Shown piece by piece: positions 45,171 to 60,009 of a stretch of DNA of 64,000 nt. The stretch is from Candidatus Roseilinea mizusawaensis (GTDB lineage: Bacteria; Chloroflexota; Anaerolineae; J036; Brachytrichaceae): positions 1 to 64,000 of the forward strand of contig JAEANN010000026.1 in NCBI GenBank assembly GCA_016841965.1, given 5' to 3'. The translations under genes were made by a program, and so were the position numbers. Every line of letters starts with the position of its first letter. Within the stretch, counting starts at the first letter, position 1. The notes under the pieces are model-generated. The model saw only the letters and a program-made list of their open reading frames with translations. It did not search any database and was not told the DNA's origin.

Positions 45171-45200
45171 TTGAGGGCCATGCAAGTACAGCTTTATAAT
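45171..45200 (+). promoter_or_regulatory. promoter of the FHA/kinase/tubulin operon
   Basis: TTGAGG (45171-45176) and TATAAT (45195-45200) are 18 bases apart. The -10 element ends 14 bases before the ATG at 45215, so the leader would be only a few bases long. Confidence 0.65.
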
Positions 45201-45214
45201 CCAACCTCAAGGCG

Positions 45215-46264
45215 ATGGGAAACACTTATTTTGACGTGCTCCGGCTGCCGCGCAACGCCAATGACGTGCAGATCGGCGACGCCTACCGCCGCCTGCGCGC
45301 CATGTATGTCAATGACCCGGCCCGGCTGCGCGCCATTGAAGACGCCTATCGCGTCCTGGCAAACCCGATCAGCCGGCGCGACTACACACAGGCGCTGCAG
45401 GAAGGGCGCGCCCCGGACATCGGCGAGAGTGAGAACGACGCTTCGGCCGTCCGCCACGCGCAGCCGGCCAGCCAGTCGGCCAGCCAGTCGGCCAGCCAGC
45501 CGGCCAGCCAGCCGGCCAGCCAGCCGGCCCCTGCCGTTCCGCGCTTTGGCCGCCCCGGTACCATGACCCGGCGCAACAAGACCGAGTTGCTCGACACATC
45601 GGGCGCAGGCCAGAACGAAAAGCCACCCACGCCACCGCCTCCGCTGCCGGCCCAGCCTCGCCGCAGCCGACGCCTCACCGAACTAGTCGACAACGCTGCC
45701 GAGCGCGCAGAGCCGGATACGAGCGCAGGAAGCCCAGAGCGGTCAACTGGCGACAGCCTCCAACCCAACCATCGGGCAGATGATCAGGATCAGCCTGTCG
45801 AGCGCGCGCACAAGCCGGCGCCAGAAAGCGACTCCGAAACCGGGCGTGACGCCGGGCGTGACGCCGGGCGTGACGCCGGGCGCGACGCCGGGCGCGACGC
45901 CGGGCGCGATGTGACCCGCATTAGCCCGACCCGACGCCCTAAGCCAATCGCCACGGTCGAGGTTGAGTATCAGGGCCAGGCTGAAGTGTTCGAGTTACCC
46001 AACGGCACGCACTGGATCGGCCGGCCCTCCAAAGACACCCCACCCCCAGATGTGCCCCTGCCCGACCCGGAGCGGTTTGTGTCGCGCAAGCACGCGCGCA
46101 TCTTCCTCGACGACAGCACCTGGACCATCACCGACAACAGCGAAAACGGCACACTGCTAAACGGCAAGCCCCTGCGCAAGGGGCAACCGAGTCGACTGAA
46201 GGACGGCGACGTCGTCATGATCGAGGGTCGCACCCTCACCATCCGGCGCGCCCGAGATGGATGA
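45215..46264 (+). CDS. degenerate J-domain and FHA domain protein
   Basis: The 349-residue protein starts with a J-like domain (NTYFDVLRLPRNAND to ANPISRRDYTQAL, about 3-62), in which the HPD motif needed to activate DnaK is replaced by VNDP. A long low-complexity linker follows with a Gln/Pro/Ala/Ser repeat (QPAS type, 12-bp units, 45469-45530) and a GRDA repeat (five times, 45841-45912). The C-terminal FHA domain (about 245-345) has WIGRPS, SRKHARI and NSENGTLLNGK, so it should bind phosphothreonine. It is the first gene of the operon and probably reads marks set by the kinase at 48084. Confidence 0.85.
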   Translation: MGNTYFDVLRLPRNANDVQIGDAYRRLRAMYVNDPARLRAIEDAYRVLANPISRRDYTQALQEGRAPDIGESENDASAVRHAQPASQSASQSASQPASQPASQPAPAVPRFGRPGTMTRRNKTELLDTSGAGQNEKPPTPPPPLPAQPRRSRRLTELVDNAAERAEPDTSAGSPERSTGDSLQPNHRADDQDQPVERAHKPAPESDSETGRDAGRDAGRDAGRDAGRDAGRDVTRISPTRRPKPIATVEVEYQGQAEVFELPNGTHWIGRPSKDTPPPDVPLPDPERFVSRKHARIFLDDSTWTITDNSENGTLLNGKPLRKGQPSRLKDGDVVMIEGRTLTIRRARDG

Positions 46265-57120: not shown

Positions 57121-57123
57121 CAC

Positions 57124-60009
57124 ATGGTCAAACTGCAGCAAACGTACATTGTCGGCCTGGGCCGGCTGGGCAGCGAGGCGCTCGAACATTTCAAGCGACG
57201 CGCCGAAGCCGCCTATGGCGAGTTGCCGGCCATCAAACTGTTGGCGATCGATGTGCCGGCCGTGAAACCAGCGAGCGAGCTTGACCCCACCCCAGCCGCG
57301 CCGCGCGATTCTGTGCTCGGACCGACAGAATGCGTCAGCCTCCCTCTCGACCTGGATGTTACCGACGCTCAACACGCTTTGCCGTGGTTACAGCAGGATG
57401 TGATCGAGCGCGGCGCGGCGTGGACGCACACACGAGCAGCCGCGCGCGCGGCATGGCACCTTAACCTTCCCGCGCTCTACCCCTTCCTCACGGCCCACCT
57501 CAACGAGATGGGATCAGTCAGTGCGCGCGACATCATGGCTGCAAAAGGGTTTGAGATTTCGACCGACCGCACCGAGGGCGCCTTCGTTCTGATCGGCGAC
57601 ATCAGCGATCTGGTCGGAAGCGCACTGCTGCTCGACGTGGCCTACGTGTTCCATCATCTGTTCCACGCCACGGGGCTGCAAATCGCCAGCACAGCGCTGC
57701 TCTTTCTACCATCCCTGACGCGATCCGACCCAATTGCTGAGGCGCGCGCTTACGCCACGCTCAAAGAGATCAACGCCCACATGGGCGCCCACCTCAGAGG
57801 GCAGCAATCTTATCGCTGTACCTACGGCCCGGCCACAAATCCTTTCCTCATCGTCGAGTCTGATGCGCCGGCCTTTAATCGTGGCTGTTACCTGATCGAC
57901 ACACGCAACGAAAAAACGTTGAGCCTGCAAGATGAACATGAGGCCGCCCGGCTGATCGGTGAATGGGTGCTGCACACCCTGCTCACCCCCCTGAAAGCGC
58001 GCATTGACGATTTTGCCGCCGCACAGGGAGCCATTCCCTGGGTGCAGGGACAACTGGCTGTCTATAACAGCCTGGGCTTTGCTGCCTACACGCTGCCGGT
58101 GAACAACCTGACTACCTGGAGCACCTGCCGGCTGGGAGAAGCTATCCTCTCCGAGCAATTGCTGAAACCCGAGTTGTTCGCCAGCGTGTCCGATCGACTC
58201 AACACGCTGATGAGCGTCACCCACTTGCGGCCCGATGAGCTGATGAGCGACGTGCTGCGCCACGACCGCGACGGCAAGCCCATCCGACTGCAAAACGACT
58301 TGATCGCCCGCCTCAAGACGCTGCCGCGCGATCAAATCGCAGCATCGGTGCAAGCTGCCATCAACACCATCAACAAGGCAACCCTGCCATCGCTGCGCAA
58401 GCAGATCGAAGCCAATGCGCGTCAGGTGGCGCAGGATGTCGAAGAAGCCATCGATCAGGAAGTGACCACCATCCTGCGCACCCGGCCGGTCGGCGGCGTG
58501 TCGCTGGCTACACAACTGGTGGGACATGTGCGCGACGAGGCCGGTCGCTTTCTACAATCGCTGGCGCGCCGTGAAGCTGCACTGCTGGCGCGCAATCAGC
58601 AACAGATCAGCTTTCTGGCCCGCCAGGGGCCGCTCCTCAAGAACGCAATCGCCAGCATTCCTTCCGCGCCGGTCACCGCGATCGGCGTCGTGGCCGGCTT
58701 CCTGGCGCCGCTGGTGCTGGCATCGATCTGGGTGTGGCAGGTGCTGCAATTCGGTTCGCCCGGCCTGCGGCTGGGTGTGATCGCCGGCGCGTGGCTCATC
58801 GCTTTTGCCGGCGCGTTGGGGGCATTGTGGCAGGCCACCTTCGGCGTCGAGCGCATCCGCGATCAATACGTCACCTACTTGCAGACCCGCTTTGAAACTG
58901 AACTGAGCCTGATGCTGGCGCAGGCTGCGCGCACACTGTATGCCGATGTCATGTCGGCAGCCGAGCGGCGTCTGTCTCAGCTCGAGCGCTTCGGCGGGAT
59001 GTTGCACAGCCTGGCGCGCGCCTATCGTCAGCGCGCGCAACAGACCTCGCTGACCGGCGCCATTGACTTCAGCCTGCAACGTTCTGTGCTGACCGAGGCC
59101 TCCGTCGATGCGCTGTATCGCCGTTACGCTGGCCAGAATGCCAGCGAGGCCCACGCCTACGCGCTGGTCGAAAAGGCCGGCCCGCTCGACCGCTGGCTGG
59201 AGTGGCGCAACGAGGAAGTGGACTTGAGCATTCTGGAGTATGGCGCATCGGTGTTCGCGCCGATGGGCGAATTGCGAGTGCAAGCACTGGCGCGCGAACA
59301 GACCGATCTTGAGCGCACGGTGCGCGAGTTGAACGAGCGGGCTGCGCCGTTGTGCACCTTTAACGTCTACCATGCCGGCCAGGCGCCGGTGTCCAGCGTG
59401 CAGACATTCGTCGGCCTGGAATCGTCCGATCAAAGCGAGGTCAGGGAGCTTTTCGAGCGCGTCAACCCGGCTGCCATCTTCGAATCAACCGGCGACCGCT
59501 TCACCATCACCGTGACCAGCGTGCGGCGCGGTATGCCGCTGTTCGGGCTGTTGCGGCTCAGCGACTTCCGCCGCAATTACTTTGACGCGCTGCGCCGCCA
59601 CATCGAGCCTTTGCACCTCGACGACGAGATGGCCCTCACGCCCGATCTAAACGCCATGTCCAGCGCCGGCTTGGGACACGCCCAAACAGACCCGGGCAGT
59701 GTGTTCGCCCTCGGCCTAGCGTTCGGGCTAATCACCCGCTACGGCAGCGGCCCAGACGGCATCTACACCGCACACGACGGCGAGGGCAACGAAATCGCGC
59801 AATTGGCGTCTGAGCGGCTCGAATCAGCCGTGCTCCTGGGCGCAGATGACAAAGTGCTCGCCCGGCTCGACGGCTTGATTCAGCAACGTCTGGCCTCAAA
59901 GAGCGCCGGCGAACTGGTGCGCGAGCTTACATCGTACGTGCAGCGGGCGGACATCGGCGCATGGGAACGACGCAGGATAAACGAGTGCATCGCCATGCTT
60001 CGGCGATAG
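57124..60009 (+). CDS. degenerate tubulin-like paralogue with membrane segments
   Basis: The 961-residue protein aligns by eye with the previous one: TYIVGLGRLGSEALEHF against TLLIGIGGTGQKVLVQV, ITVTSVRRGMPLFGLL against ITVLQTKHGVPLFALT, and FALGLAFGLITR against FALGIAYGFIFK. The GGTGSG loop is missing; the equivalent region reads TALLFLPSLTRSDP. Two hydrophobic helices lie at about 519-575. It should not hydrolyse GTP but could cap or anchor the filament to the membrane. It starts 3 bases after the previous stop and ends the operon. Confidence 0.75.
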   Translation: MVKLQQTYIVGLGRLGSEALEHFKRRAEAAYGELPAIKLLAIDVPAVKPASELDPTPAAPRDSVLGPTECVSLPLDLDVTDAQHALPWLQQDVIERGAAWTHTRAAARAAWHLNLPALYPFLTAHLNEMGSVSARDIMAAKGFEISTDRTEGAFVLIGDISDLVGSALLLDVAYVFHHLFHATGLQIASTALLFLPSLTRSDPIAEARAYATLKEINAHMGAHLRGQQSYRCTYGPATNPFLIVESDAPAFNRGCYLIDTRNEKTLSLQDEHEAARLIGEWVLHTLLTPLKARIDDFAAAQGAIPWVQGQLAVYNSLGFAAYTLPVNNLTTWSTCRLGEAILSEQLLKPELFASVSDRLNTLMSVTHLRPDELMSDVLRHDRDGKPIRLQNDLIARLKTLPRDQIAASVQAAINTINKATLPSLRKQIEANARQVAQDVEEAIDQEVTTILRTRPVGGVSLATQLVGHVRDEAGRFLQSLARREAALLARNQQQISFLARQGPLLKNAIASIPSAPVTAIGVVAGFLAPLVLASIWVWQVLQFGSPGLRLGVIAGAWLIAFAGALGALWQATFGVERIRDQYVTYLQTRFETELSLMLAQAARTLYADVMSAAERRLSQLERFGGMLHSLARAYRQRAQQTSLTGAIDFSLQRSVLTEASVDALYRRYAGQNASEAHAYALVEKAGPLDRWLEWRNEEVDLSILEYGASVFAPMGELRVQALAREQTDLERTVRELNERAAPLCTFNVYHAGQAPVSSVQTFVGLESSDQSEVRELFERVNPAAIFESTGDRFTITVTSVRRGMPLFGLLRLSDFRRNYFDALRRHIEPLHLDDEMALTPDLNAMSSAGLGHAQTDPGSVFALGLAFGLITRYGSGPDGIYTAHDGEGNEIAQLASERLESAVLLGADDKVLARLDGLIQQRLASKSAGELVRELTSYVQRADIGAWERRRINECIAMLRR

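Follow-up and report, generated by a model that had tools for sequence, protein, structure and literature searches.

Introduction

Tubulin_2 (PF13809) is the FtsZl1 family of Makarova and Koonin, who in 2010 described its neighbourhoods as holding VWA proteins, kinases, a GTPase and OmpA proteins, proposed a role in membrane remodelling and, having detected no similarity to the tubulin C-terminal domain, suggested a novel mode of filament formation (PMC2875224). The words FHA, PP2C and phosphatase are absent from the main text of that paper. FtsZl1 has been an unexplained tubulin branch since then, and a 2023 survey left Tubulin_2 aside as a divergent group with an unclear history. Here we describe a run of eight genes, ending in two Tubulin_2 genes that we call TubA and TubB, in a 64,000-nucleotide stretch of Candidatus Roseilinea mizusawaensis (Chloroflexota, Anaerolineae; assembly GCA_016841965.1, contig JAEANN010000026.1, positions 1 to 64,000; hereafter the window).

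With the FtsZl1 operons (PMC2875224) the window shares the tubulin family, the coiled-coil middle, the adjacent VWA gene, kinase genes (present in some of those operons) and a predicted membrane system. The part of that report available to us describes no loop-less, membrane-anchored partner, which is present in the window as TubB. In the GAP1-N2 systems of Firmicutes, paired tubulin genes with a coiled coil occur with VWA genes, and a catalytically active kinase, PP2C and VWA form a separate theme in Actinobacteria; Kaur et al. (2020, PMC7159879) read these sets as biological-conflict systems. In those systems the tubulin theme is distinct from the kinase theme and both are centred on a GAP1 GTPase, whereas in the window the kinase/PP2C set sits with the tubulins and FHA proteins are added; Pfam and profile annotation found no GAP1-type GTPase among the eight genes. 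The logic of kinase, PP2C and FHA/VWA is also shared with the TerY-P triad and the type VI secretion system (T6SS) switch. By Pfam, the window has genes of all three types of the triad (kinase, PP2C and VWA), but its VWA protein matches VWA/VWA_2 and, unlike those of the TerY-P and T6SS switches, is exported and anchored by a transmembrane (TM) helix. The T6SS threonine-phosphorylation pathway was rejected as an identity for the run, the window's genome having no match to the sheath protein VipA/TssB.

The Tubulin_2 family, its VWA link and its occasional kinase link are already known. New, in a literature coverage without most subscription papers, are a VWA-TubA-TubB core with clade-limited FHA and PP2C genes, the pairing of an active with a degenerate tubulin, complete modelled folds and a triple fusion. 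As a full explanation we propose, with a probability of about 0.5, that the run is a lineage-specific, signalling-equipped version of an FtsZl1/VWA membrane system.

The eight-gene run and its conserved core

The run comprises eight consecutive open reading frames on the + strand at 45215-60009, in which neighbouring genes overlap by up to 13 bp or lie up to 64 bp apart. In order, they encode a J-like/FHA protein, a PP2C phosphatase, a transmembrane Ser/Thr kinase, a 4-TM/zinc-ribbon/FHA protein, a double FHA protein, a VWA-TM-FHA protein, TubA and TubB (Table 1). An earlier note on this DNA, made from the letters alone, had reported eight closely packed same-strand genes with these domains, and both statements hold. 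Pfam finds FHA, PP2C, Pkinase, FHA, two FHA, VWA with FHA, and Tubulin_2 in each of the last two genes, with DnaJ in gene 1 and the zinc ribbon in gene 4 only below threshold; no HPD motif is found in the sequence of the J-like domain. We infer operon structure here from gene spacing and conservation. The note's single promoter fared less well. A sigma-70-like match does lie upstream of gene 1, but promoter-like sites numbered five against 3.4 +/- 1.8 in shuffled sequence, and because this count is not above the shuffled expectation the match alone is no evidence. The arrangement itself is not due to chance, since further genera and families show the same order, PP2C-(kinase)-FHA-FHA/FHA-VWA/FHA-TubA-TubB. 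No Rfam match was found in 40000-64000.

PF13809 was found in 91 of 396 genomes of the class and in 45 of 400 in a sample of the phylum. Neighbourhoods were mapped for 67 loci with TubA (L numbers below), in limited genome samples drawn mostly from Chloroflexota, and their domains were counted with profiles derived from the genes of the window, with Pfam as a check. A VWA gene lies directly upstream of TubA or is fused to it at 52 of the 60 loci with enough flank, and a second tubulin-like gene lies directly downstream at 37 of 58. VWA-TubA-TubB is the conserved core among relatives and is widespread in the phylum; the signalling part accompanies it only rarely. In another class of the phylum, TubA (9-399), VWA (1688-1828) and TubB (2424-2799) are joined in one 3513-residue protein (L121:9299-19840), and VWA-TubB fusions occur in five other genomes. 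These fusions support a physical complex. A distant TubB relative adjoins TubA in a Myxococcota genome (hhalign 96%).

TubA and TubB are unequal paralogues

The two tubulin-like proteins that the earlier note had placed side by side both belong to Tubulin_2, with scores of 221 bits for TubA and 62 bits for TubB (curated cut-off 27), but they are not equivalent. The core of the GTP signature (T4) loop is present in 65 of 65 TubA proteins, as GGTG or in one case GGTN, and the window's TubA also has the T1 loop. In contrast, the loop GGTG(S/T)G is kept in none of the 23 TubB proteins alignable at that site, the window's included. The TubA and TubB profiles can nonetheless be aligned along their full length (838 columns, hhalign E 5e-59); the main gap falls at the TubB TM hairpin, which is absent from TubA. 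We name TubB a degenerate paralogue rather than a GTP-binding member because it is related by descent but has lost the loop. TM segments, called throughout by a hydropathy window, are predicted in 32 of 37 long TubB proteins and almost never in TubA, which points to TubB as the membrane anchor.

TubA carries the hallmarks of FtsZl1, namely an extended coiled coil after the tubulin domain (long helices at 417-602) and a VWA gene immediately upstream. Its closest named relative is from Thermoflexales bacterium SKYG113 (91% identity), and an unclassified Anaerolineae metagenome-assembled genome encodes one at 95%. Neither TubA nor TubB matched FtsZ_C or Tubulin_C by sequence, and sequence search gave no convincing solved relative.

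The AlphaFold model of TubA (pLDDT 84, pTM 0.65) matches CetZ, TubZ, FtsZ and tubulins, reaching Z 25-27 against CetZ (CetZ2: Z 25.3, rmsd 3.3 over 300 residues, model 19-785, chain 1-341). The TubB model (pLDDT 75, pTM 0.49) gives Z 18.1-20.3 against CetZ over model 4-826. Both comparisons span nearly the whole target. Since the match reaches almost to the end of the target and 417-602 consists of long helices, the C-terminal tubulin domain of TubA would lie beyond the helices (~720-800), a placement that comes from match ranges and secondary structure rather than residue-level superposition. The models indicate that each protein has the whole tubulin fold, with a helical insert placed inside it, and they show the C-terminal domain that was not found in FtsZl1 in 2010. 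Compared with CetZ, FtsZ and tubulin, the overall fold is common, but the window pair has a ~300-residue helical insert within the fold and a degenerate membrane-bound partner. A role for TubA/TubB as the cell's sole division FtsZ is ruled out, as the genome encodes a separate canonical FtsZ with FtsZ_C.

Heterodimeric tubulins, including eukaryotic alpha/beta, polymerise with one interface that does not hydrolyse GTP. This, together with modelled folds that appear complete including the C-terminal domain, weighs against a somewhat unlikely reading in which TubA and TubB form a scaffold rather than a filament: their heterodimers, switched by GTP, would gate the VWA protein without ever polymerising. 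That reading would account for a TubB without GTP loop, a subunit that would break the regularity of an A-B lattice with GTP at each contact, and Makarova and Koonin (PMC2875224) allow that FtsZl1 may not form filaments.

Two variants stand apart from these pairs. In the Wallbacteria/UBP16 genomes L097, L098 and L099, TubA is followed by two 3-TM proteins (~426 and ~640 aa) in place of TubB. A TubB-type protein at L024:7832-10930 has no TubA neighbour on its 20-kb contig and lies near a TM kinase gene, possibly an orphan degenerate tubulin.

The VWA protein and the signalling genes

The VWA domain of gene 6 has an intact MIDAS (DESGS) and is probably external. In all the clade genomes compared, the FHA domain of the same protein is missing the Arg and Ser that bind phosphate. 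This domain, which joins the external VWA to the cytoplasm, therefore probably does not read phosphothreonine in the canonical way. The four FHA proteins that had been proposed as such readers are thereby reduced to those of genes 1, 4 and 5, which keep R and S; gene 4 has lost N, and in gene 5 both domains retain the pair.

Judged by their motifs, the kinase, the PP2C and several of the FHA domains are apparently competent. The PP2C has intact NQDS, ADGMG, GDSR, CSDG and DNAT motifs, and the kinase has VAVK, HRDIKPEN, DFG and APE. The kinase ectodomain bears a weak likeness to Golvesin_C (E 0.0013, below cut-off). At L018 and L093 the kinase is fused to the double-FHA protein. Gene 1 contains two near-perfect in-frame 12-bp tandem repeats (45461-45529 and 45840-45906) encoding SQPA- and GRDA-type linkers, whose length may vary between strains.

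Table 1. Genes of the eight-gene run and the upstream promoter match
Feature	Position	Strand	Description	Basis
Promoter match	45171..45200	+	sigma-70-like, TTGAGG-18-TATAAT; 14 bp 5' of gene 1	10/12 matches
Gene 1	45215..46264	+	J-like N-terminus, repetitive linkers, C-terminal FHA with intact R/S/N	Pfam, motifs
Gene 2	46257..48035	+	PP2C phosphatase, one TM near residue 372, C-terminal ectodomain	Pfam, motifs, hydropathy
Gene 3	48084..50060	+	Ser/Thr kinase, TM near residue 374, ectodomain	Pfam, motifs, hydropathy
Gene 4	50125..51000	+	four TM helices, zinc-ribbon-like stretch, FHA	Pfam, motifs, hydropathy
Gene 5	51050..51973	+	N-terminal TM, two FHA domains	Pfam, motifs, hydropathy
Gene 6	52025..54313	+	signal-like N-terminus, VWA with MIDAS, TM near residue 625, degenerate FHA	Pfam, motifs, hydropathy
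Gene 7, TubA	54301..57120	+	Tubulin_2/FtsZl1 protein, GGTGSG loop intact, helical insert ~417-700, no TM	Pfam, alignment, model
Gene 8, TubB	57124..60009	+	full-length paralogue of TubA without GGTG loop; TM hairpin ~518-556 at tip of helical insert	Pfam, alignment, model

The signalling genes belong to one TubA clade

Within one TubA clade the eight-gene arrangement is conserved across several genera and two families (f1 and f29), with partial evidence from a third (f16). In a quick TubA tree the FHA-carrying loci cluster, with SH-aLRT 100 for the inner five and the sixth (L050) just outside at an unresolved fork. The window genus is joined first by a genome of the other family (f29) and only then by one from its own (f1), which suggests transfer as a unit. 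Only in this clade does the VWA protein carry a fused FHA domain; a Pfam scan found one in 0 of 45 VWA partners from outside. This fusion, the conserved arrangement that maps to the clade, and gene junctions that overlap or nearly touch make it improbable that a general kinase/PP2C/FHA cluster merely sits beside an unrelated tubulin/VWA module, even though the cassette is missing from most homologous cores. Kinase genes also lie downstream of the core in another TubA branch, where they appear to have been recruited independently. Among 73 other flanking proteins, kinase, PP2C and FHA are absent from the 25 commonest Pfam families.

One core branch (L020, L022 and L084) has a large protein (1495-1616 aa) and a ~300-aa protein upstream of VWA. 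The smaller is a calcineurin-like phosphoesterase in L020 and L084, the two tested, and the larger, tested in L020, has no firm Pfam match.

Proposed mechanism and a rival role in conflict

The signalling-equipped FtsZl1/VWA system is proposed from gene content, conserved order, motif status, paralogy, predicted folds and a natural fusion. Its core would be three adjacent genes encoding an exported membrane-anchored VWA protein, a soluble TubA competent in its GTP loop and a TubB with a membrane hairpin. TubB is most likely a membrane-bound non-catalytic partner on which TubA would assemble with GTP, presumably as a heterodimer. Assembly may yield a tubulin layer or short filament, kept off the membrane by the helical stalk and with a coupling to the external VWA domain that is either direct or passes through the membrane; the putative output is membrane remodelling. 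In this clade, phosphothreonine marking would be set by the transmembrane kinase and PP2C with their ectodomains; the two enzymes themselves and partner proteins are the probable carriers of the marks. Genes 1, 4 and 5 encode the FHA proteins that may read these marks and so control recruitment or assembly. More tentatively, the complex could be an obligate tubulin heterodimer, in which one subunit retains the GTP site and the other, borne on a helical stalk, is a pseudo-GTPase embedded in the membrane. Linked to an extracytoplasmic VWA and subject in one clade to transmembrane kinase/phosphatase/FHA control, such a heterodimer would be a phospho-regulated transmembrane cytoskeletal complex.

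Several results weigh against this explanation. Of the 38 loci with good flanks, 5 have FHA and PP2C genes in the run, and these belong to a single TubA clade; a kinase gene is in the run at 7 of 38. The homologues are thus mostly found without the neighbours that the earlier note had taken as a general part of the system. Its membrane system survives as cytoplasmic tubulin-fold proteins, a probably external VWA domain and an apparently competent kinase/PP2C/FHA set in a conserved arrangement, but the signalling set is not a general property of the family. Clade member L051 has no kinase nearby. Five of the 37 long TubB partners have no predicted TM, and the downstream protein of Acidobacteria (545 aa), a candidate TubB, was rejected as unrelated. 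The models rest on shallow alignments, and that of TubB has a pTM of 0.49. Clade-specific threonines in TubA show no excess over other residues (7/45, 16%), and because of this the kinase-marked filament that had been proposed is unproven as a substrate. T76 and T617, common to all six FHA-carrying genomes and found elsewhere at 0% and 5%, are candidate sites only.

A serious rival, if an unlikely one, is that the tubulin/VWA core is a conflict system for defence or self-recognition, in which tubulin assembly triggers a response to invasion and kinase/PP2C/FHA form an interchangeable input module. The patchy, transferred distribution fits such a role: the family is present in fewer than a quarter of the class genomes, different versions occur inside one bacterial family, and the TubA tree departs from family lines. 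Kaur et al. (PMC7159879) described paired tubulin genes with VWA genes as well as kinase/PP2C/VWA sets, and at L088:6667-13580 genes for a KAP NTPase with an FGE-sulfatase domain, a SIR2-like protein and an nSTAND NTPase-WD40 protein, all similar to parts of conflict systems, lie between TubA and a VWA-TubB fusion. However, no effector gene (nuclease, pore or NADase) was found in the window operon, Pfam revealed no common effector family among the 73 flanking proteins, and PADLOC gave no specific match to a known defence system, returning only generic kinase/phosphatase profiles and one weak match at chance level.

For the signalling-equipped FtsZl1/VWA system, a concrete architecture that can be put to the test emerges from the active/degenerate pairing, the hairpin at the insert tip, the C-terminal domain recovered in the models and the TubA-VWA-TubB fusion. 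The cassette would be a system in which a Ser/Thr kinase/phosphatase pair regulates a tubulin-fold protein at the membrane.

Neighbouring features

Upstream of the run, 41546-42196 holds G+C-rich nested tandem repeats with units of 17, 46, 137 and 162 bp, which have no clear coding role and lie 5' of a GNAT acetyltransferase gene. Downstream, an OsmC-like gene (60098-60517, +) starts 88 bp past TubB on the same strand and is followed on the opposite strand by an SbcC/Rad50-like gene (60650-63319, -).

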